Source of the DNA: Singulisphaera sp. GP187
GTDB taxonomy: Bacteria; Planctomycetota; Planctomycetia; Gemmatales; Gemmataceae
Assembly: GCA_945905925.1 (NCBI GenBank)
Contig: CAMDQN010000018.1
Coordinates: 1 to 64,000 of the forward strand
Direction: 5' to 3'
Length of the DNA: 64,000 nt
The position numbers were made by a program, and so were the translations under genes. Positions 26,167 through 42,373 of the stretch are shown here, one piece after another. Numbering within the stretch: position 1 is the first letter of the stretch; every line of letters starts with the position of its first letter. The notes beneath the pieces are model-generated. The model did not search any database. It had not been told where the DNA came from and saw nothing but the letters and a program-made list of their open reading frames with translations.

Positions 26167-26177
26167 GAGTGTAAAGA

Positions 26178-26284
26178 GCCGGCAATACCTACTCTCGCGC
26201 TGGACGCACTACCATCGGCCCCGAGCGTTTCACTGCCGTGTTCGGAATGGGAACGGGTGTTTCCACTAGGGTATGGTCACCGGC
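26178..26284 (-). rRNA. rrf: 5S ribosomal RNA
   Basis: About 107 nt. On the minus strand it starts GCCGGTGACCATACC and has the conserved CCCGTTCCCATTCCGAACAC (loop B/C region) and GAGAGTAGGTATTGCCGGC at the 3' end. The terminal stem GCCGG/CCGGC sets both ends, to within a few bases. It follows the 23S gene by about 105 nt and is the last gene of the operon. Confidence 0.95.
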
Positions 26285-26331
26285 AAGCTGCTTACAATCT
26301 CCATCAATACGAATGTGATCTGTGACGACAA

Positions 26332-26351
26332 GGTTAAGCAAGTTAGTTGCA
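26332..26351 (-). other. 3' arm of the pre-23S processing stem
   Basis: These 20 bases are the exact reverse complement of 29770-29789, so the two flanks of 23S can pair in the transcript. Such stalks are RNase III substrates that release pre-23S. The stem continues beyond with small bulges (TTGTC/GACAA). Confidence 0.75.
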
Positions 26352-26389
26352 CGTGACGTATTGTTGACACGAGCGAGAAAGGGAACAAT

Positions 26390-29522
<3,133 letters not shown>

Positions 29523-29769
29523 CATTGTTCGCTCCCTCGACTCGTGTTACCACTTATCGCTGTCACGAACACTTCACCTTACTAGTATTTCATATCACCC
29601 CCAAACGCTGGGTAGCGCCCGGGGTCGACGATGTTTCCTATCTCGATCTTTCGATCTTCTAAGGCTCGTGTCTTGTTTGTCATAATTCGCTACCACTCGC
29701 ACCCAGCCTGCCCGTACCCCACTTGCGTGCGATGAAGACAAAACTAAGAGCCAGCGGCATCGAAAAAGA

Positions 29770-29789
29770 TGCAACTAACTTGCTTAACC
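29770..29789 (-). other. 5' arm of the pre-23S processing stem
   Basis: Perfect 20-nt complement of 26332-26351. It lies about 250 nt before the 23S 5' end and 350 nt after tRNA-Ala. The spacer 29523-30140 holds no gene; the rest of it shows no further feature that I can support. Confidence 0.75.
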
Positions 29790-30140
29790 AAGTTGTCAAA
29801 GATCACTTAACCGCTCGCGGTAATCCGCTCGCGGTATTTGGGCAACCCTTCGCCTTTCGGCTCCAGATCACCCGAGCTGGCTCGCGACCCTGTCGAGTCG
29901 GCGGACCAGATTCTCGCCCTTCTTACCTTCGCGTGCTACGTCGCAAGTTCTTATCGACGTTGCGTTTCCATCACTGCAGGGCAAATCTTAGTAGCGTCGC
30001 GTTTCAGAGTCAACCCGTCCCGCGATTTTTTCTTCTCGTTGTCTTCTTGCGGCTTTTACTGCAAGGCTTTCGAGATCACGGGGGCCGGGAACAAGGCTCG
30101 CCACTCGCTTGTGTTCCCGTGTCGGGTCGCGGACTTTAGG

Positions 30141-30213
30141 TGGAGGAGAGGGGACTCGAACCCCTGACTTCCTGCTTGCAAAGCAGGCGCTCTACCAACT
30201 GAGCTACACCCCC
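30141..30213 (-). tRNA. tRNA-Ala (TGC)
   Basis: 73 nt on the minus strand. GGGGGTG acceptor, TAGCTCAGTTGGTAGAGC D-arm, anticodon arm CCTGC-TTTGCAA-GCAGG giving anticodon TGC, and T-arm AGGGG-TTCGAGT-CCCCT. Acceptor pairing has one U-U mismatch and one G-U pair. CCA is only partly encoded. It is the second of two tRNAs in the spacer position. Confidence 0.93.
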
Positions 30214-30235
30214 GAACCGTGTGCCGCCAACCAGA

Positions 30236-30309
30236 TGCGCGTGCCTGGATTTGAACCAGGGACCCCGTCGTTATCAGCGACGTGCTCGTACCAACTGAGC
30301 TACACGCGC
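30236..30309 (-). tRNA. tRNA-Ile (GAT)
   Basis: 74 nt on the minus strand. Acceptor GCGCGTG pairs perfectly with CACGCGC. Anticodon arm CGTCG-CTGATAA-CGACG gives anticodon GAT; T-arm CCTGG-TTCAAAT-CCAGG. It is the first gene of the operon. The order Ile then Ala before 23S is that of an ordinary 16S-23S spacer. Confidence 0.94.
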
Positions 30310-33093: not shown

Positions 33094-34914
33094 TCACTGC
33101 CCGGCCTTCTTCACGTCGGCGTTGCTCAGCAAGTACTTCTGCCGCTGCTCCGCGAACGCACGCAGGTTCATCCCACCGCGACCGCCGCCGCCCGCGGTCG
33201 GAATCGCGTCGTCGGTCGCACGCTTGAACGCGTCGAACGAGTCGAGCTTTCGCGTGTCGAGTTCCACTTCCTTCTCGATCAGCTTGCGGTACTGCGACAC
33301 CACCGGCCCGAGTTTCTTCCAGTCGAGCGAATCCTCCGCGATCTTCTTCACGTTCGCGAGGTACTTCGCCTTGAACGCGGGCACCGCGAGGAGCTTACTG
33401 CGGAGCGGCTTGTTCGCGTCGGTCAGCCCGATGAGCGGATCGAGTTCCACACTGCGAGCGCCGCCCATGCCACCACCGGGACCACCCGGGAACCCGCCGC
33501 CCGGAGGCCCGAAGCCACCACCAGGACCGCGATCCTTCAGTTCCTTGAACGCTTTCTTCTGCTCCTCGGTCATCAGTTTTTCGAGCTTCTCATCGACTTC
33601 CTTCTGAATCGCTTCGAGTTCCTTCTTCTGCGCGTCGGTGAGTTGGAGCGTGTCCTGCACTGGCGGCGGAATGATCACGCCCGGAGGCGGACCGCGGAAG
33701 CCGCCGCCCGGACCACCGAACCCACCGCCCGGACCGCCCATCGCGGGACGGAACGACTCGTTCATGTCGTGCGGGATGATGTGGAACTTGTTCTTCTCGT
33801 CCAGGTAGATGCAGAAGTCGCTGGAGCGAACCCAGTAGCCGTCGTTGTTGATCAGCGCGTTATCGAGCGCGAGGAACCACAGAATGCCGTCCACGTCCGC
33901 GATCGGCTTGAGTGCCGCTTCGAGCTTGTCCGGCGGTGTCTGGTTCAGCACTTTGCAGAAGTTCACCAGCGCCTTCCACGCCTCCGCGTTCTCGTCGGAC
34001 TTGATCTGGAACACGCGCTTGTAGTCTTCGACATTTTCACCGAAGTATTCCAAGCCTCCGCGCCCCCCCGGACTACCGCGAACCTTCCACCGCGTACCTT
34101 TAGTGGTCTTGTAATGCTCAGTCAGGAACGCCTTGTCGAACTGCTGCACGCTGGCGTACACACCCCAACTCTCGCCGTTGATGACCACCTTCACGAAGTT
34201 CGCTTTCGGAGCCGGGATGTACTGGTTCGCGATGTGCGAGTACAGCACCGTGCTCATCAGCGACGCGTCCTCGTGCGCGTTGAGCAGGTTAAGCGTCTTG
34301 TAACCTCGGAGCCGCTGCTTGTCGTCGGCCATGTCGAATGACAGGTTGAGCGATCGCTTCGAGCCAGCACCGACGCCCATGTACGACGACATGCCGCGGA
34401 AGTGGACGCCGACGTTCTTGTACTTCTTGCCGTCCACGGTCGCGGTCGCGGGCACGTCCACATCGGTGTTGTGGAAGTCCTGAATCTCCGATTCCCAATC
34501 TGAATTCTCGAACTCCAAAAAGATGGTGCGGAGCACGGTCGGGTCGTAGAGTTTCGCGTCCGGGAAGTTCTTCACCTCGTCGGGCTTCACCTTCGGGCCG
34601 GGCTTGCCGGCTTCGCCGCCCTTGCCGAACGGACCGCCTTTCGGCCCACCGAAGCCACCGAAACCGCCCTTCGCGCCGGCCTTCGCGGCCTCGCGTGCCG
34701 GTTTGCGCTCTTCGGTGTTCAACCACCCGTCCTTGTTCTTGTCGAACTCGGCGAGAATCTTGCGTTCCTGTCCGCCGGGCGGACCTTTCCCGAAGCCTCC
34801 GGGACCGCCCTTTTTGTCCTTCTCGGGCGGTTGCGTGAACGCACTCGGCGCGCACAAAGCCACCAGCGCCGCGGTGAGAATCGCCATCGGCAGCGCGAAT
34901 AACCGGCGGTGCAT
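33094..34914 (-). CDS. CotH-like kinase with EF-hand and inserted LTXXQ-like module
   Basis: 606 residues from ATG 34914, preferred over an ATG four codons upstream because a GAGG lies at the right distance. Signal peptide at about 1-26, then one EF-hand loop (DKNKDGWLNTEE) near residue 60, a Gly/Pro-rich linker, and a CotH domain from about residue 120. The CotH core has KNVGVHFRGMSSYMG, GSKRSLNLSFDMAD, LRGYKTLNLLNAHEDASLM, VINGESWGVYASVQQFDKAF and the metal-site KFHIIPHDMNESF. Right after it, about 95 residues rich in Gly/Pro with LQLTDAQKKELEAIQKEV are inserted before the C-terminal part of the domain (NKPLRSKLLAVPAFKAKYLA). CotH proteins phosphorylate proteins in spore coats. It is downstream of DUF4956 and VTC genes. 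Confidence 0.9.
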   Translation of the reverse strand: MHRRLFALPMAILTAALVALCAPSAFTQPPEKDKKGGPGGFGKGPPGGQERKILAEFDKNKDGWLNTEERKPAREAAKAGAKGGFGGFGGPKGGPFGKGGEAGKPGPKVKPDEVKNFPDAKLYDPTVLRTIFLEFENSDWESEIQDFHNTDVDVPATATVDGKKYKNVGVHFRGMSSYMGVGAGSKRSLNLSFDMADDKQRLRGYKTLNLLNAHEDASLMSTVLYSHIANQYIPAPKANFVKVVINGESWGVYASVQQFDKAFLTEHYKTTKGTRWKVRGSPGGRGGLEYFGENVEDYKRVFQIKSDENAEAWKALVNFCKVLNQTPPDKLEAALKPIADVDGILWFLALDNALINNDGYWVRSSDFCIYLDEKNKFHIIPHDMNESFRPAMGGPGGGFGGPGGGFRGPPPGVIIPPPVQDTLQLTDAQKKELEAIQKEVDEKLEKLMTEEQKKAFKELKDRGPGGGFGPPGGGFPGGPGGGMGGARSVELDPLIGLTDANKPLRSKLLAVPAFKAKYLANVKKIAEDSLDWKKLGPVVSQYRKLIEKEVELDTRKLDSFDAFKRATDDAIPTAGGGGRGGMNLRAFAEQRQKYLLSNADVKKAGQ

Positions 34915-34944
34915 TGTGAACCTCATGTTGAGATGAAGGTGAAG

Positions 34945-34988
34945 AACCTAACACCCAACCCCTTCCCTGAAAGGAAGGGGGTTAGGTT
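34945..34988 (-). terminator. Hairpin between the DUF4956 and CotH genes (C/G-run family, short form)
   Basis: AACCTAAC and GTTAGGTT close a stem that contains CAACCCCTTCC/GGAAGGGG around the loop CTGAAA. The stop codon of the DUF4956 gene (34982-34984) is inside the right arm. It may reduce read-through into the CotH gene or mark a processed mRNA end. Confidence 0.7.
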
Positions 34989-35695
34989 TGCTCGCCTTGC
35001 TTCCACTCGACCCCTTGAACGCCCTCGGTGCGGTTCAGATCGCCGATCAGCGCGATCACGGTGGCGGATTTGCGAAGGCACAGCGCGTACGTCAAATCAA
35101 GCGCCGCTCCCTGCCGCACCGTGGCAGCCGCGACCAGTTCGACGCCGTCGGCGTGGGTCGCTATCGTCGCCGCAAGCGGGCCCGCTGGATCCGTCCCGAT
35201 CCCGACGCGGACCACCACCGTCGTCGGTCGCGGTTGCGCGGCCGGCGCCGGCTTCTCACCGCTGCGACCCCAGAGGGCCAGCAGCCACGCCACGAAGCCC
35301 ACGATCGGGATGCCCACCACCGCGACGAGATACTCCCCGGTTCCCGCAGCCATGCCGACCACCACCGCGAAGATCACGAACGCGGTGTCGCGTGTGTCCT
35401 CCACCACCGAACGAAATCTCACGATCGACAGGGCACCCACGAGCGCGAACGCCTGCGCGATGTTCTTGCCGATCACCATGCTCACCATCCCCAAGAGGAT
35501 GGCAAGCAGGACCATCGTCGCCACGAATGACGCAGCTTCTGCGCGGTTCTTCTTCTGCGTGAGGAAGTACGCGGTGCCCGCCGCGATCCCGAACATCGCC
35601 GCGAAGCAGATCCGCATCGCGATGTCTTCGGGCGTCAGCGCAGTGGTCGGGGGAGATTCGGTGAACGGGTTCGCATCGCCCCCGGAATTAGCCAT
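34982..35695 (-). CDS. DUF4956 membrane protein
   Basis: 237 residues from ATG 35695, which overlaps the VTC gene end by 8 bp. At least four transmembrane segments follow in order: MRICFAAMFGIAAGTAYFLT, VATMVLLAILLGMVSMVIGK, then AFVIFAVVVGMAAGTG and YLVAVVGIPIVGFVAWLLAL. The conserved DUF4956 motif is FALVGALSIVRFRSVVEDTR DTAF (split here for length) between helices 2 and 3. A soluble C-terminal tail of about 90 residues follows. DUF4956 genes are commonly next to VTC polyphosphate polymerase genes, as here. It may be a membrane partner or channel for the polymerase; that is inference. Confidence 0.9.
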   Translation of the reverse strand: MANSGGDANPFTESPPTTALTPEDIAMRICFAAMFGIAAGTAYFLTQKKNRAEAASFVATMVLLAILLGMVSMVIGKNIAQAFALVGALSIVRFRSVVEDTRDTAFVIFAVVVGMAAGTGEYLVAVVGIPIVGFVAWLLALWGRSGEKPAPAAQPRPTTVVVRVGIGTDPAGPLAATIATHADGVELVAAATVRQGAALDLTYALCLRKSATVIALIGDLNRTEGVQGVEWKQGEQT

Positions 35696-36521
35696 TCGCA
35701 ACCCCGCTCGCTTGCTCTGCAATCGCGGGAACCAATCCGGCGGCGCGCACAAACGTCCGGTACTTCGACACCGGCGTCGGGGTCAGTCCGAGGTCCACGA
35801 CGATGCCCTTGAACAGCGCCGGCATCGCGACGCGAAACTTGAACTCGCACACCACGCGATCCAACAGCGGCGCCCCCTCACCAACCTGTTCGATCGCCCA
35901 CTCGGTCGCAACGACCCCGCGAACATTCCGGTCGAAGGTCAGGCGCACCGTACCGCCGTCGGCGGTGCCGAGGTACGCAACACGCTCGTACGCGACCCGG
36001 CACACCGGCTTCAGTTGCTTCTGGATCAATTGGCTGTGGAACCACTCACCCGCCCACTCACTAGTCAGCGATAGCGCCGCGAGGTCCGACACCTCGTTCG
36101 CGTTGATCGGCGCGCGATGTTTCCGCACCTTGTCGCCGTTCTTGCTCTTCCGTTCCACGAACACCGGACCGTTCAGCCCGTAGCGCCGCACGCGGAACTT
36201 GTCGCGATTGTAGCCCTGAGTACGGTAGAACACGTCGAAGTTCGGTGTGTCGGTGTAGATGCTGGTCGTGCAGTACGCGTTCCCCATCGCTGGGTCCGCG
36301 TAAGCGTCGAGCGCGAGTTTCCCGGTCACGCGGGCGATCACCTCACGCACCTGTTCCTCGGTCAACAGAAACTTCACTTCGTACGCCGTCGCCGCGTCAG
36401 TCGCACCGTTCGCGGATGGGGCGAACAACGAGGGCGACTCGAGTCCGCTCGCGGGTGTCACGTAACCATTCCCCGAGGGACCGAACGCGGCTCCCGTTGC
36501 GGAATCGGACAGGTCCGACAT
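35688..36521 (-). CDS. VTC-domain polyphosphate polymerase-like protein
   Basis: 277 residues from ATG 36521; the AGGAG 8 nt upstream selects it over the GTG at 36527. The VTC domain is a tunnel-shaped CYTH-superfamily fold that, in yeast Vtc4, makes polyphosphate from ATP. The expected pattern is visible: YEVKFLLTEEQVREVIARVT at the first strand, YCTTSIYTDTPNFDVFYR, the basic strands DKFRVRRYGLNGPVFVERKS with KNGDKVRKHR, and the late acidic strand RVVCEFKFRVAMPALFKGIV. There are no membrane segments. It is translationally coupled to DUF4956. Whether it makes polyphosphate or another phosphorylated product is not shown. Confidence 0.88.
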   Translation of the reverse strand: MSDLSDSATGAAFGPSGNGYVTPASGLESPSLFAPSANGATDAATAYEVKFLLTEEQVREVIARVTGKLALDAYADPAMGNAYCTTSIYTDTPNFDVFYRTQGYNRDKFRVRRYGLNGPVFVERKSKNGDKVRKHRAPINANEVSDLAALSLTSEWAGEWFHSQLIQKQLKPVCRVAYERVAYLGTADGGTVRLTFDRNVRGVVATEWAIEQVGEGAPLLDRVVCEFKFRVAMPALFKGIVVDLGLTPTPVSKYRTFVRAAGLVPAIAEQASGVANG

Positions 36522-36830
36522 TCTCACCGCTCCTTCACCCGTTCTTCAAACGGGGTTGCGTTGTGAAACGGAACCGGTCGGCCGTTCGAGACGGCCTGAC
36601 CGCTGACTCTCTAACTGGTCGGGAGTCACACCAATGCCTGGCAGCGTTTAGCAGCAGCAGAACGGGAAAGGGCATTGGCGGTGTGGAGAACAACCGAGTT
36701 TACCCGAAATACAACAATCAAGTCTACCTGACCCGAACACGGGATTCACCGACTTTTCATCACGCGTTACGTTGCGATCTTCGCTGGTCGCGTTGCGACC
36801 ACCCCCGAGCGTGTAACAACCACGAGAACA

Positions 36831-36860
36831 TTCACCGCGTCTTCACGATTCGTTTATGAT
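36831..36860 (+). promoter_or_regulatory. Candidate promoter of the second CotH gene
   Basis: TTCACC (36831-36836) and TATGAT (36855-36860) with an 18-bp spacer, about 64 bp before the ATG at 36924. It lies in the 402-bp divergent gap 36522-36923 between the VTC and CotH genes, which otherwise holds only AT-richer sequence; I see no gene there. Confidence 0.4.
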
Positions 36861-36923
36861 GATCTCCAACAACTCCCCCCTGATGAAACGAAACACGCTA
36901 CGTCTTTTCAAGAGGTCACACCG

Positions 36924-38543
36924 ATGAGACTCCTCTTCTGGATCGCGACCGCGACCGTGTTCGCGCTCACGGGTTCGGTGCTGTGGTCGCCGACACACGC
37001 GAACGCTGTACCGGATGAACCCAAGAAAGCACCTGCGGGCGCCGACGTGTTCGGGCACGAGAAGGTATGGCAGTTCCATCTATCGCTCACCGCGAAGGAA
37101 TACGATGCGATGCAACCGGTCAACGTCGGGTTCGGGTTCGGCCCACCGCCGAAGAAGGTTGAGCCGAAGCCCGGCGAGGAAAAGCGCGAAACGCATCGCA
37201 GCGCGTTCGGAACGGAGTTCCCGTGGGCCGAAGCCTCTCTCACCGCGGACGGTAAGACCATCGAGAAAGTCGGACTGCGGTACAAGGGCAACTCGACGTA
37301 CCTGTCCACCTCGCGCGGCCTGAAACGCTCGTTCAAGGTCGATCTCGACCGCCACGACGACGCGGCCCGGTTCCACGGCTTGAAATCGCTCACGCTCAAC
37401 TGCGGCGTGCTTGACCCGACGAAGGGCCGCGAAGCGCTCGCGTACTCGATCTACCGCGCCGCCGGCGTGCCCGCCCCGCGGACCGCGTTCGCCGAGGTCA
37501 CGATCACGGTCCCCGGCAAGTACGACAAGGAACACGTCGGCACATACACACTCGTCGAGGGCGTGGACAAGAACTTCCTGAAGCTGAACTACAAGAACGA
37601 CAACGGCCTCCTGATGAAGCCCGAACGCATCCGCGGGCTGGATTACCTCGGCGAAGACTGGGCACGCTACAAGGACACCTACCAACCCAAGCGAGAAGCG
37701 ACGAAAGAAGAAGTCAAACGCGTCATCGATTTCACGAAGCTGGTGAATCAGGGCACCGACGCGGACTTCAACAAGCAAATCGCGACCTACCTCGACGTGG
37801 ACGCGTTTCTGAAGTACATGGCTGCGACCGCGATCGTCTCGAACCTCGACAGTTTCTTCACGCTCGGCCACAACTACTGTCTCTACCTCCACCCGCAGAC
37901 GAACAAGTTCCACTTTATCCCATGGGACGTGGACCTCGCTATGGGCAATTTCGCGTTCATGGGCACCGCGGACCAGCAAATGGATCTGAGCCTGACGAAG
38001 CCCTACCCGCAGTCGCGGTTGGCGGATCGGGTGATGGCGAACAAGGAGTTCGCGGACAAGTACCAGCAGATTCTGAAGGAAATCGTGCCGCTCTGCTTCA
38101 ACAAGGAAAAGGTGCTGAAGGAACTCGCGACCATCGAAAAGTCCGTGCTGCCGCTGATCGAGAAGGAGAAGAAGGCGGTCAGCGCGCGGAAGGAACCGGC
38201 CGGTGGTCCCGGCTTCGGCGGCTTCGGCGCGGCCCCACCGGACCTGAAGAAGTTCGTGGAGAAGCGTTCGGAGTCGATCGCGGCGCAACTCGCGGGCGAG
38301 CGAAAAGGCTTCACGCCGGTCGGCTTCGGGTTCGGCGGCCCGCCACCGGCGCGCCCGCTGCCGGGCGACGTGCTCCCGCCGAACGTCCAGAACAACCTGC
38401 AGATGACCGAGGCGCAAAAGAAGGAACTCGCGGACTTGCAGAAGGAAGTGGACGCGCGCCTCGATAAGATTCTGACACCAGAACAGCGTTCGCAACTGAA
38501 GCGGATGCGCGAGGGCGGCTTCGGCCCGCCGAAGATGCCGTAG
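36924..38543 (+). CDS. CotH-like kinase with C-terminal LTXXQ-like module
   Basis: 539 residues with a signal peptide (LLFWIATATVFALTGSVLW, cleaved near residue 30). CotH-kinase domain from about residue 40: KVGLRYKGNSTYLSTSRGLK, RSFKVDLDRHDDAARFHGLK, LTLNCGVLDPTKGREALAYS, TYTLVEGVDKNFLKLNY and the metal-site strand KFHFIPWDVDLAMGNF near residue 325. The C-terminus is Gly/Pro-rich and ends with NLQMTEAQKKELADLQKEVD then LTPEQRSQLKRMREGGFG, very like the inserted segment of the other CotH. It is divergent from the VTC/DUF4956/CotH operon. An extracytoplasmic protein or sugar kinase is likely; the substrate is unknown. Confidence 0.9.
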   Translation: MRLLFWIATATVFALTGSVLWSPTHANAVPDEPKKAPAGADVFGHEKVWQFHLSLTAKEYDAMQPVNVGFGFGPPPKKVEPKPGEEKRETHRSAFGTEFPWAEASLTADGKTIEKVGLRYKGNSTYLSTSRGLKRSFKVDLDRHDDAARFHGLKSLTLNCGVLDPTKGREALAYSIYRAAGVPAPRTAFAEVTITVPGKYDKEHVGTYTLVEGVDKNFLKLNYKNDNGLLMKPERIRGLDYLGEDWARYKDTYQPKREATKEEVKRVIDFTKLVNQGTDADFNKQIATYLDVDAFLKYMAATAIVSNLDSFFTLGHNYCLYLHPQTNKFHFIPWDVDLAMGNFAFMGTADQQMDLSLTKPYPQSRLADRVMANKEFADKYQQILKEIVPLCFNKEKVLKELATIEKSVLPLIEKEKKAVSARKEPAGGPGFGGFGAAPPDLKKFVEKRSESIAAQLAGERKGFTPVGFGFGGPPPARPLPGDVLPPNVQNNLQMTEAQKKELADLQKEVDARLDKILTPEQRSQLKRMREGGFGPPKMP

Positions 38544-38699: not shown

Positions 38700-40118
38700 A
38701 TGCACGTCCCCCTGTTCTCCTCGCGACGCGAATTCCTCCATTCCGCCGGGGGCGGGTTCGGCGCACTCGCGCTGTCCGCGATGGCGGCGGAAGCCAGCGC
38801 GTCAGAATCGCCACGCGTCGCGGATCCGCTTGCGCCGAAGAAGCCGCACTTCGCGGGCACCGCGAAGCGGGTCATCTTCCTGTTCATGGAAGGCGGGCCG
38901 TCGCACGTCGACCTCTTCGACCCCAAACCGGAACTCACCAAGCAGCACGGCAAGCCGCTACCCGCGAGCTTCGGCAAGGTCATCACGCCGATGGGCACCG
39001 GCGGGAACAATCTCCTCGCCAGCAAGCGGAAGTTCGCGAAGCATGGAAAGAGCGGGCTGGACTTCAGCGACTGGCTCCCGAACCTCGCGAAGTGCGCCGA
39101 CGACTTCACGCTGCTCCGCGCGTGCTGGGCCGACGGGTTGAATCACGTCGGCAGCGTGTGCCAGATGAACACCGGGAGCATCCTCGCGGGTCGACCGAGT
39201 TTGGGCTCGTGGGCGATGTACGGACTCGGGAGCGAGAACAAAAACCTGCCGGGGTTCGTGGTCTTCACGGAAGGTGGCGGTCAGGTGTTCGGCGGCGCGC
39301 GCGTCTGGGGCACCGGTTACATGCCCGCGACCTACCAAGGCACGCACTTCAACAGCGGCGCGAACCCGATCCTGAACCTCAGCCCGCCCGCGGACATCGG
39401 CGGCGTGCGCCAGAAAGACAAACTCGACCTCATCGGCGAACTGAACGGCATTCACCAGCGCGAGCGGCCCGGCGACACGGAGTTGACCGCACGGCAAGCC
39501 GCTTACGAACTCGCATTCAGGATGCAGGCGAGCGCACCGGAGGCGGTGGATTTAACGAAGGAATCGGAGAAGACGAAAGAGGCATACGGCCTGAACCGCA
39601 AGGAGACCGCGGAGTTCGGTCACCGGTGCTTGCTCGCACGGCGGCTCGTCGAACGCGGTGTGCGGTTCGTACAGGTCTACTGCGGAGCTGGGAGCCAGTG
39701 GGACGCCCACGCGGACATCGAGGGCAACCACACGAAGATGTGCCTTCGCTCCGACCAGCCCTCGGCGGCGCTGCTCCGCGACCTGAAACAGCGAGGCATG
39801 CTCGACGACACCCTGGTAATCTGGGGCGGCGAGTTCGGTCGCACGCCCATGACCGAGGGCACAAATGGGCGTGACCACAACCCCTACGGCTTCTCGATGC
39901 TGATGGCCGGCGGCGGCGTGAAGGGTGGCTACGTCCACGGCACAACCGACGAATTCGGGCTACACGGCATCGACGGTCGCGTTCACGTTCACGACTTCCA
40001 CGCGACCATTCTCCACTTGCTCGGCTTCGACCACACCAAACTGACGTACTTCCACAACGGGAAGGACGAGCGCCTCACCGACGTGAAGGGCAAAGTGGTG
40101 AAGGAAGTGCTGGCGTAG
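38700..40118 (+). CDS. DUF1501 domain-containing exported protein
   Basis: 472 residues. DUF1501 family, an alkaline-phosphatase-like fold. The N-terminus FSSRREFLHSAGGGFGALAL is a Tat signal. The family landmarks KRVIFLFMEGGPSHVDLFDP (about residues 58-77), GLNHVGSVCQMNTGSILAGR, FVQVYCGAGSQWDAHADIEG, LVIWGGEFGRTPMTEGTNGR and DHNPYGFSMLMAGGGVKGGY are all intact. DUF1501 genes usually follow DUF1549/DUF1553 genes in planctomycetes; no such partner is adjacent. Activity unknown. It follows the CotH gene after the C/G-run repeat. Confidence 0.93.
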   Translation: MHVPLFSSRREFLHSAGGGFGALALSAMAAEASASESPRVADPLAPKKPHFAGTAKRVIFLFMEGGPSHVDLFDPKPELTKQHGKPLPASFGKVITPMGTGGNNLLASKRKFAKHGKSGLDFSDWLPNLAKCADDFTLLRACWADGLNHVGSVCQMNTGSILAGRPSLGSWAMYGLGSENKNLPGFVVFTEGGGQVFGGARVWGTGYMPATYQGTHFNSGANPILNLSPPADIGGVRQKDKLDLIGELNGIHQRERPGDTELTARQAAYELAFRMQASAPEAVDLTKESEKTKEAYGLNRKETAEFGHRCLLARRLVERGVRFVQVYCGAGSQWDAHADIEGNHTKMCLRSDQPSAALLRDLKQRGMLDDTLVIWGGEFGRTPMTEGTNGRDHNPYGFSMLMAGGGVKGGYVHGTTDEFGLHGIDGRVHVHDFHATILHLLGFDHTKLTYFHNGKDERLTDVKGKVVKEVLA

Positions 40119-41064: not shown

Positions 41065-41625
41065 ATGGCGTCCGGTGGCCTGCCCCAACTAATCAATGCG
41101 CATTACGAAGCTCTCTACCGGTACGCCTACCGATTGAGCGGGTCGTCGGCCGACGCCGAAGACCTCACTCAAGAGACGTTCGGGAAGGCACTCGCCCGGT
41201 TGCCACAGCTCCGCGAACCGGACCGCGCCAAAGCCTGGCTGTTCCGAATTCTGCGGAACCTGTATCTGCATAAGATCCGCGACCAGAAGCGGCACAAGGT
41301 GATCCCGCTCGACACCACCGGCGACCTGCCCGCACGCGTCAGCGACGACCACACACTGGATATCGATCCCGCGAAGTTGCAGCAGGCGCTCGACGAACTG
41401 GATGAAACGTTTCGGACGCCCATCATCCTGTTCTATTTTGGAGAGTTCAGTTACCGCGACATCGCCGCGCAAATGGATCTGCCGATTGGAACGGTGATGT
41501 CGCGACTGGCGCGGGGAAAGTCTTACTTGCGAACTCGCTTGAGCCCAACCGACGAAGCGCACCACGAACGGCCCTCACTCCCGACAGAGGCCGTTGCGAA
41601 GCAGGTGACCGATGGAATGCCGTGA
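41065..41625 (+). CDS. ECF-type RNA polymerase sigma factor
   Basis: 186 residues. Region 2 is at about 8-75 (YEALYRYAYRLSGSSADAED and LTQETFGKALARLPQL, then KAWLFRILRNLYLHKIRD), and region 4 at about 105-165 (LQQALDELDETFRTPIILFY, then FSYRDIAAQMDLPIGTVMSR). There is no region 1.1 or 3, as expected for extracytoplasmic-function sigma factors. It would direct RNA polymerase to a small regulon. The downstream gene overlaps by 14 bp and encodes its probable anti-sigma factor. Confidence 0.92.
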   Translation: MASGGLPQLINAHYEALYRYAYRLSGSSADAEDLTQETFGKALARLPQLREPDRAKAWLFRILRNLYLHKIRDQKRHKVIPLDTTGDLPARVSDDHTLDIDPAKLQQALDELDETFRTPIILFYFGEFSYRDIAAQMDLPIGTVMSRLARGKSYLRTRLSPTDEAHHERPSLPTEAVAKQVTDGMP

Positions 41626-42373
41626 CGCCCAATTTTACCTGAGGATGCGCCGACACGCGGCCGACGAACTCGGCCCGGACGTGACCGCTCCGCTCGACGC
41701 GCACCTGGCAACCTGCCCGGCGTGCGCCGCCGACGCCCGCGAACTGATGTCGTTCGACCGCGCCGTCGCGTCCACGATGGTCAACGTTCCTATTCCTTCT
41801 GGGTTGCGCGCCCGGCTCATCGCGTCCGGCGCGGAAAAGCAAGGCACGGCCCTCCGCCGCAAGGCGTATCGGGCCGTGGCCGCTCTCGCGGCGTCGCTTC
41901 TGTTCGCGGGTCTCGCGCTCGGCGTGTTCACCAATACGCGCCCCAAACCGAACAACGACGAACTCGTCGCGCTCAACGACCGCCTGTTGAGCGACCCGCA
42001 ACAATCCACCAAGGAATGGCTCGCGGCGCAAAAGCTCCCAAATGAACTCCCACTGCCGTTCGATTACACCCTTCTCGTATCCCTCGGGTACGAGAAGGTG
42101 AACGGTCGGGACGTTCCGGTGATCGTGTTCCGCAGTCCGCACCCGGATCCCGCGAACCTCGGCGAACCCGCCGGGTTCGCGAAGGTGTACCTGTTCCCGC
42201 ACGACGGCCGGTTCGACCTGAAGAACCTTCAGGAATCGCAGGCTTCGCTCACGCGTGCGCAGGTCTACGTCGGACGGGATGCCTATCGCGGCGTGACCTA
42301 TGTGTTCGTCCACACCGGGCGAGACCTGCAAAAGTTCTTCCGCACCGGCAACGTTGGCGCGATCCACATCTGA
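41612..42373 (+). CDS. Zinc-finger anti-sigma factor
   Basis: 253 residues. The N-terminal anti-sigma zinc-finger (ZAS) has Cys3, then HLATCPACAADARELMSFDR with the H-x3-C-x2-C pattern at about 31-38. One transmembrane helix is at about 85-108 (AVAALAASLLFAGLALGVF). The extracytoplasmic part of about 140 residues is of unknown fold (YTLLVSLGYEKVNGRDVPVI, QVYVGRDAYRGVTYVFVHTG) and presumably senses a signal. It is translationally coupled to the sigma gene (14-bp overlap). Release of the sigma factor on signal is the expected mechanism for this family. Confidence 0.88.
   Translation: MECRDAQFYLRMRRHAADELGPDVTAPLDAHLATCPACAADARELMSFDRAVASTMVNVPIPSGLRARLIASGAEKQGTALRRKAYRAVAALAASLLFAGLALGVFTNTRPKPNNDELVALNDRLLSDPQQSTKEWLAAQKLPNELPLPFDYTLLVSLGYEKVNGRDVPVIVFRSPHPDPANLGEPAGFAKVYLFPHDGRFDLKNLQESQASLTRAQVYVGRDAYRGVTYVFVHTGRDLQKFFRTGNVGAIHI

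Follow-up and report, generated by a model that had tools for sequence, protein, structure and literature searches.

The DNA analyzed was a window of 64,000 nucleotides (nt), positions 1-64,000 of contig CAMDQN010000018.1 from Singulisphaera sp. GP187 (assembly GCA_945905925.1). The subject of this report is a group of four genes within it, which encode a VTC-type polyphosphate (polyP) polymerase, a DUF4956 membrane protein and two CotH-type kinases. A sequence-only reading had placed all four genes here, and their positions were confirmed by the open reading frames (ORFs) and by Pfam matches that all exceeded the curated cut-offs (CotH, 23.8 bits; VTC, 23 bits; DUF4956, 30.6 bits). The features are as follows.

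33094-34926, minus strand: CotH1, secreted CotH-type kinase, 610 amino acids (aa); Pfam CotH, 130 bits
About 34982-35695, minus strand: DUF4956 membrane protein, ~237 aa; Pfam DUF4956, 43.4 bits
35688-36527, minus strand: VTC-type polyphosphate polymerase, 279 aa; Pfam VTC, 105.8 bits
36528-36923, no strand: divergent intergenic region from VTC to CotH2, from reading of the sequence
36924-38543, plus strand: CotH2, second secreted CotH-type kinase, divergent, 539 aa; Pfam CotH, 203 bits

The VTC gene may start at GTG 36527 or ATG 36521, and its end overlaps the DUF4956 gene. The listed DUF4956 ORF (34982-35752, 256 aa) opens at TTG 35752, a purely mechanical first start, which gives an overlap of 65 nt. 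The overlap noted in the sequence-only reading stands, and its extent was refined to 8 nt by assigning the start to ATG 35695 within the same ORF. This start was preferred because an 8-nt overlap fits the VTC-DUF4956 gaps of relatives (median, −10 nt in loci of the same order and +4 nt in the GTDB loci described below). CotH1 follows DUF4956 after 55 nt on the same strand and, given the head-to-tail arrangement with an 8-nt overlap and a 55-nt gap, VTC, DUF4956 and CotH1 look like a single operon. CotH2 lies 396 nt from VTC on the opposite strand. The intergenic region between them contained a single weak sigma-70-like match (plus strand, 36831-36860), which does not count as evidence of function. 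The genome of ~6.47 Mb encodes one VTC, one DUF4956, five CotH genes and a PPK1, and the probability that two of its CotHs would by chance lie no more than 3 kb from the sole VTC is ~1e-5 (0.005 expected per 6 kb of 6.47 Mb).

The main data showing that the grouping is more than chance were the co-occurrence counts from two sets of loci. The order set comprised regions around VTC genes in the same taxonomic order, searched with profiles built for this analysis (57 VTC loci). The GTDB set was obtained by scanning contigs with a DUF4956 alignment, a seed blind to neighbors, and the best 80 loci were taken. Across 102 genomes of the order, VTC was found in 53 and DUF4956 in 74. The 57 order loci were divided into 30 with VTC, DUF4956 and CotH, 21 with VTC and DUF4956, 5 with VTC and CotH and 1 with VTC alone, at a contig end, so that CotH was near VTC in 35. 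Wherever both were present, DUF4956 lay directly downstream of VTC on the same strand (51/51). For the best 80 GTDB loci the corresponding figures were 55 with all three genes, 15 with VTC and DUF4956, 8 with DUF4956 and CotH and 2 with DUF4956 alone; VTC thus adjoined DUF4956 in 70 and CotH was nearby in 63. VTC and DUF4956 shared a strand in 70/70 of these loci, and VTC came first in 67. The best 80 loci were spread over well more than 12 phyla and included Planctomycetota, Verrucomicrobiota, Acidobacteriota, Chloroflexi, Actinomycetes, Firmicutes, Poribacteria, Myxococcota, Deltaproteobacteria, Bdellovibrionales, Campylobacterales, Eisenbacteria, Zixibacteria, Aminicenantes and others. Among 14 control genomes, VTC and DUF4956 were both present in Bacteroides ihuae, Corynebacterium glutamicum and Methanosarcina acetivorans, the latter two also with CotH, and neither was present in the others.

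Pairwise distances between the proteins were also correlated. In 57 three-gene loci the distance-matrix correlation r was 0.885 for VTC-DUF4956, 0.811 for DUF4956-CotH and 0.744 for VTC-CotH, against permutation maxima of 0.11-0.162. Genes that are passed on as a unit would be expected to show such correlation, although shared ancestry of the hosts also adds to it. It is nearly certain that VTC, DUF4956 and CotH form a real conserved module. The co-occurrence implied by the sequence-only reading was strong and wide in both sets, and an objection to that reading on the ground of no co-occurrence fails.

Departures from the full module were recorded as well. A second VTC copy was found beside CotH without DUF4956 at L044, L046 and L053 (genomes G009, G010 and G012). 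In these genomes DUF4956 sits at the other VTC copy, the module being split over two loci, and at least some of the five VTC-CotH order loci lacking DUF4956 fall in them. DUF4956 was found directly with CotH in VTC-less genomes or loci (L208-L211, L213, L214, L219, L221-L225, L121, L137, L139, L144, L176, L179, L182 and L186). One VTC copy, L049 (G006:C1:1405666-1406304), carries one in-frame TAA, and an intact second copy is present in the same genome.

The window VTC exceeded the Pfam cut-off by a wide margin (105.8 versus 23 bits), and no SPX or membrane domain was matched in it by the Pfam scan. It was therefore assigned as a VTC-domain enzyme rather than a subunit of a eukaryotic-type VTC complex. 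The family profile matched yeast Vtc4 structures over the whole domain (3g3q, E value 2.9e-26), the 7ytj and 8i6v complexes being matched too, and the motifs Arg-x-Arg-x-Tyr-Gly, Glu-x-Lys, Tyr-x-Arg, Glu-Val-Lys and Ser-Lys-(Tyr/Phe) were in register with Vtc4. Window residues K52, R112, R114, K127, K136, R182, E228, K230 and K255 align to conserved tunnel residues of Vtc4. Counterparts of Vtc4 Lys200, Arg264, Arg266, Lys281, Lys294, Arg361, Glu426 and Lys458 could be aligned and were conserved across the bacterial VTC family. In one diverse alignment and in a wider alignment (n = 56), little or no variation was seen at the basic residues of the tunnel or in the Glu-x-Lys pair. In yeast, VTC is inactivated by substitution of R264, R266 and E426 (PMC9911596). 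Since tunnel residues needed in yeast are retained, the window VTC is likely to be catalytically active. PPK1 was found alongside VTC in this genome and in 20/21 checked relatives, so VTC is not the general, bulk polyP enzyme, and the idea that VTC replaces PPK1 was rejected for the same reason.

The DUF4956 protein was modeled with AlphaFold2 from 63 sequences (mean predicted local distance difference test score [pLDDT], 85). The model contained five transmembrane helices (residues 41-65, 70-94, 96-115, 120-138 and 141-165) followed by a C-terminal beta-alpha-beta-beta-alpha-beta domain. This C-domain matched ACT and other ferredoxin-like domains, the C-terminal domain of MgtC (2lqj) being among the top structure matches; the ferredoxin-like fold is common and gives no pointer to function. 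For the membrane part, no structural match was found in the PDB with Foldseek or VIA-align, the C-domain alone being matched, from which novelty does not follow. Profile comparison with MgtC/SapB was colinear over 188 columns at a probability of 94.5, while a reversed MgtC alignment and five unrelated family alignments, used as controls, gave ≤0.5%. In Pfam no MgtC match above the cut-off was obtained for this protein, the families listed being DUF4956, PMT_2 and DUF6442 only. The protein is thus a distant relative of MgtC/SapB by sequence profile, not filed as a member. Arg112, Phe113 and Arg114 were invariant in 63/63 sequences, and the loop that carries them has a mean of 3.6 Lys/Arg. Positive segments were located in the loops after the first and third helices and in the segment after the fifth. 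By the positive-inside rule these loops and the C-domain would face the cytosol, which would place the Arg-Phe-Arg loop and the C-domain on the side where VTC works.

For both CotHs, N-terminal export signals were evident by eye, and the CotH1 model shows a helix at residues 5-24. A possible N-terminal hydrophobic export segment was present in 92/99 CotHs adjoining VTC or DUF4956, according to a lenient hydropathy test. The match to the solved Bacillus cereus CotH (5jd9) had an E value of 8.7e-17 for CotH2 and 2.2e-4 for CotH1. The CotH1 model (mean pLDDT, 82) aligned to the same structure at an E value of 5.4e-17 and a TM score of 0.84 by target, showing an intact CotH fold. The catalytic Asp pair is conserved as D362/D387 in CotH1 and D309/D335 in CotH2, the register with D228/D251 resting on alignment to B. 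cereus CotH. Both D228 and D251 are required in Bacillus subtilis CotH (PMC7821199). Export and fold are therefore well supported, and kinase activity is inferred. Additional segments were an EF-hand-like loop in the N-terminal part of CotH1 (residues 62-72), of a kind present in 35/109 module CotHs, and, in both window CotHs, a Gly/Pro-rich linker, an insertion in CotH1, after which comes a helical hairpin that resembles LTXXQ/Spy (CotH1 424-462; E value 0.08, below the cut-off).

The sequence-only reading had treated the two as a pair of exported kinases. Export signals and Asp pairs were indeed found in both, but they are not equivalent. Nine module CotHs from other planctomycetes, Verrucomicrobia and Acidobacteria shared 51-55% identity with CotH1, compared with 29% between CotH1 and CotH2. 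CotH1 was therefore assigned as the module's own kinase, and CotH2, judged by sequence identity, is a more distant, added paralogue. Catalytic residues were kept in VTC and in both CotHs, so the objection that they might have been lost fails. Since co-occurrence is strong and these residues are kept, it is plausible, as had been suggested, that the system acts beyond the cytoplasmic membrane.

The wider neighborhood was informative mainly in Firmicutes. In 18 Firmicutes loci the module runs on in the fixed order CotH, GH72-like, HEAT and GT2 at nearly constant spacing. The proteins of this run are a ~740-aa protein with a weak match to glycoside hydrolase family 72 (GH72), a HEAT protein of ~370 aa and a chitin-synthase-like glycosyltransferase of family 2 (GT2). 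The same gene order is annotated on a Planococcus plasmid. This fixed run ending in GT2 ties the module to exopolysaccharide in these 18 loci. Beside non-Firmicutes modules, no fourth constant partner was found among 80 genes; a phosphate-selective porin considered as a regular partner was dropped, being matched in just 2 of the 80. Genes for extracytoplasmic function (ECF) sigma factors, two-component systems and Ser/Thr kinases recur near the module, sigma-factor genes in 15 other loci, and no link is claimed because they are abundant in these genomes. Two single loci were recorded in addition. In a Paenibacillus locus (L090:9473-11371) a Cthe_2159 carbohydrate-binding protein, not CotH, follows VTC-DUF4956. 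In a Lachnospiraceae locus (L193:11499-14197) MBOAT and AlgX-like genes follow the module, which suggests an acetylated exopolysaccharide.

Within the window, the scanned neighbors (30.5-42.4 kb) encode PEP (phosphoenolpyruvate) mutase-like, ABC (ATP-binding cassette) ATPase, DUF1501, sigma factor and anti-sigma-like proteins. One of these lies 3' of CotH2:

38700-40118, plus strand: DUF1501 secreted protein, 3' of CotH2; Pfam DUF1501, 530 bits

A DUF1501 gene was near VTC in several loci of the same order and was not a constant partner elsewhere, and the gene probably lies outside the module. An ECF-type sigma factor gene overlaps an anti-sigma-like zf-HC2 gene (41065-42373, plus strand). Elsewhere in the window, tRNA-Ile, tRNA-Ala, 23S and 5S genes are linked (26177-30309, minus strand) with a PEP mutase-like gene upstream, and a group I intron (Rfam RF00028, 74.9 bits; 27130-27453, minus strand) lies within the 23S rRNA gene (26390-29521, minus strand). 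Rfam matches within the window included no 16S gene, and this linkage without 16S suggests an rRNA operon with an unlinked 16S.

We tentatively propose that the module is a three-gene cell-envelope phosphorylation system in which the full chain runs from VTC through DUF4956 to CotH. VTC would polymerize the phosphate of ATP to polyP in the cytosol, as the retained residues strongly suggest. It may do so at the cytosolic mouth of DUF4956, an arrangement suggested by the gene coupling, the topology and the analogy to yeast VTC. DUF4956, with its ACT-like domain and Arg-Phe-Arg loop, would anchor and regulate the polymerase and may move the polyanion across the membrane. The exported CotH would then phosphorylate a secreted matrix protein or polysaccharide; in the window CotH1 would serve as the module kinase and CotH2 as the extra paralogue. 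A rationale for the VTC-DUF4956 partnership is provided by yeast, where the polymerase domain of Vtc4 works slowly by itself and requires basic channel residues in the membrane to discharge the chain (PMC9911596). Discharge in yeast is also thought to be helped by a lumen-positive potential (PMC9911596). Bacterial membranes are likewise positive on the outer side, and similar potential-assisted logic could thus apply to VTC and DUF4956. That the pair is a bacterial polyP synthase-translocase, and that the exported CotH draws on polyP, or on nucleotide regenerated from it, as its phosphate source, is regarded as quite doubtful.

Several observations weigh against the proposed chain. DUF4956 and CotH occur without VTC in 8/80 GTDB loci and 12/20 VTC-less order loci, and VTC and CotH occur with no DUF4956 nearby in 5/57 order loci; no step, VTC included, is therefore obligatory. 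Outside Firmicutes exopolysaccharide genes are not constant neighbors, and a Pfam scan found none among the neighbors at 30.5-42.4 kb, the rest of the window being unscanned for these. To our knowledge no channel has been demonstrated for DUF4956 or MgtC. CotH in the known case uses ATP, and polyP as a substitute donor is unsupported. One alternative is a matrix-kinase module without polyP export. CotH would use scarce extracellular ATP, and VTC-DUF4956 would serve in the cytosol as regulators, sensing or buffering phosphate or nucleotide and setting the output of exopolysaccharide or of CotH. The ACT-like fold match of DUF4956 is consistent with this, such domains being typically regulatory, as are the DUF4956-CotH pairs without VTC and the exopolysaccharide synthase genes linked in Firmicutes. 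However, the fixed VTC-first overlapping order and the full set of polymerase residues suit a catalytic pair better than a sensor, and this alternative, while a serious one, is thought somewhat unlikely.

Phosphate or cation homeostasis was also considered, with VTC storing cytosolic polyP, the MgtC-like DUF4956 tuning phosphate or magnesium, and CotH as a frequent passenger. The profile match to MgtC and the loci with VTC-DUF4956 and no CotH nearby (21/57 order and 15/80 GTDB loci) speak for it. It was nevertheless judged unlikely: CotH is encoded somewhere in 22/22 checked genomes with an incomplete VTC locus, it stays with DUF4956 where VTC is missing, and PPK1 is also present. Far less probable is that the VTC homologue is no polymerase but a tripolyphosphatase or some other triphosphate-tunnel enzyme. 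Hydrolases of the triphosphate tunnel metalloenzyme (TTM) superfamily have the same tunnel fold, and no assay of any bacterial VTC was found in the literature searched; the specific match to Vtc4, including the Tyr-x-Arg and Ser-Lys-Tyr motifs, argues against a hydrolase. Chance adjacency of unrelated genes, for which nothing was found in favor, is already refuted by an order conserved over many phyla and by the correlated distances, and its probability is negligible.

The grouping itself is already known from Gram-positive pel accessory genes (PMC7112168). How widely the module occurs, how constantly VTC and DUF4956 are paired and that DUF4956 resembles MgtC are points undescribed in the literature searched, where DUF4956 is scarcely named and no functional test of the three genes as one system was found. 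In the reviews consulted, VTC polymerases are presented as eukaryotic and as having a membrane channel of their own, whereas the membrane protein that constantly accompanies bacterial VTC is of another, MgtC-like type, and an exported kinase is often present too. Should the three work together, they would represent a second solution to membrane-coupled polyP synthesis and might be a source of phosphate for kinases outside the cytoplasm. A synthase-translocase, if real, would explain how kinases can act extracellularly in the absence of ATP.

Of the known systems, the Gram-positive pel loci contain cotH, poly-phosphate polymerase, DUF4956 and DUF4832 accessory genes, for which regulation of Pel by phosphorylation was suggested (PLoS Pathog 2020, PMC7112168). 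The same three families stand side by side there, next to exopolysaccharide genes, their function being untested in that paper. The window module differs in that its scanned neighbors (30.5-42.4 kb) include neither a pel gene nor a glycosyltransferase gene, in its host, which judged by its relatives is of the Gemmata/Planctomycetes kind, and in its second, divergent CotH. In Clostridium perfringens NELoc-2, two VTC genes are each followed by a ~225-aa membrane-located protein annotated as "tubulin/FtsZ," and the locus continues with CotH, a 685-aa protein, a HEAT protein and a glycosyltransferase (PMC2879425). The ~225-aa protein is probably DUF4956, and the gene order equals that of the 18 Firmicutes loci. 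The composition of NELoc-2 differs from that of the window locus, and neither polymerase nor kinase function was proposed for it (PMC2879425).

The individual proteins can be compared in the same way. The spore coat kinase CotH of B. subtilis and B. cereus (5jd9; PMC7821199) shares its fold and catalytic Asp pair with the window CotHs, which differ in having an export signal, extra EF-hand-like and hairpin segments, and no sporulation context. MgtC/SapB (C-terminal domain 2lqj) has five membrane helices and then an ACT-like domain with a colinear profile, as in DUF4956; the latter lacks a Pfam MgtC match, has the invariant Arg-Phe-Arg loop and is tied to VTC and CotH. The yeast VTC complex (Vtc1/Vtc3/Vtc4; PMC9911596) has the tunnel residues in common and likewise combines a cytosolic polymerase with a membrane partner. 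In contrast to yeast, the window VTC has no SPX domain, the membrane part is of an MgtC-like type with five transmembrane helices rather than a DUF202-type with three, and an exported kinase is added.

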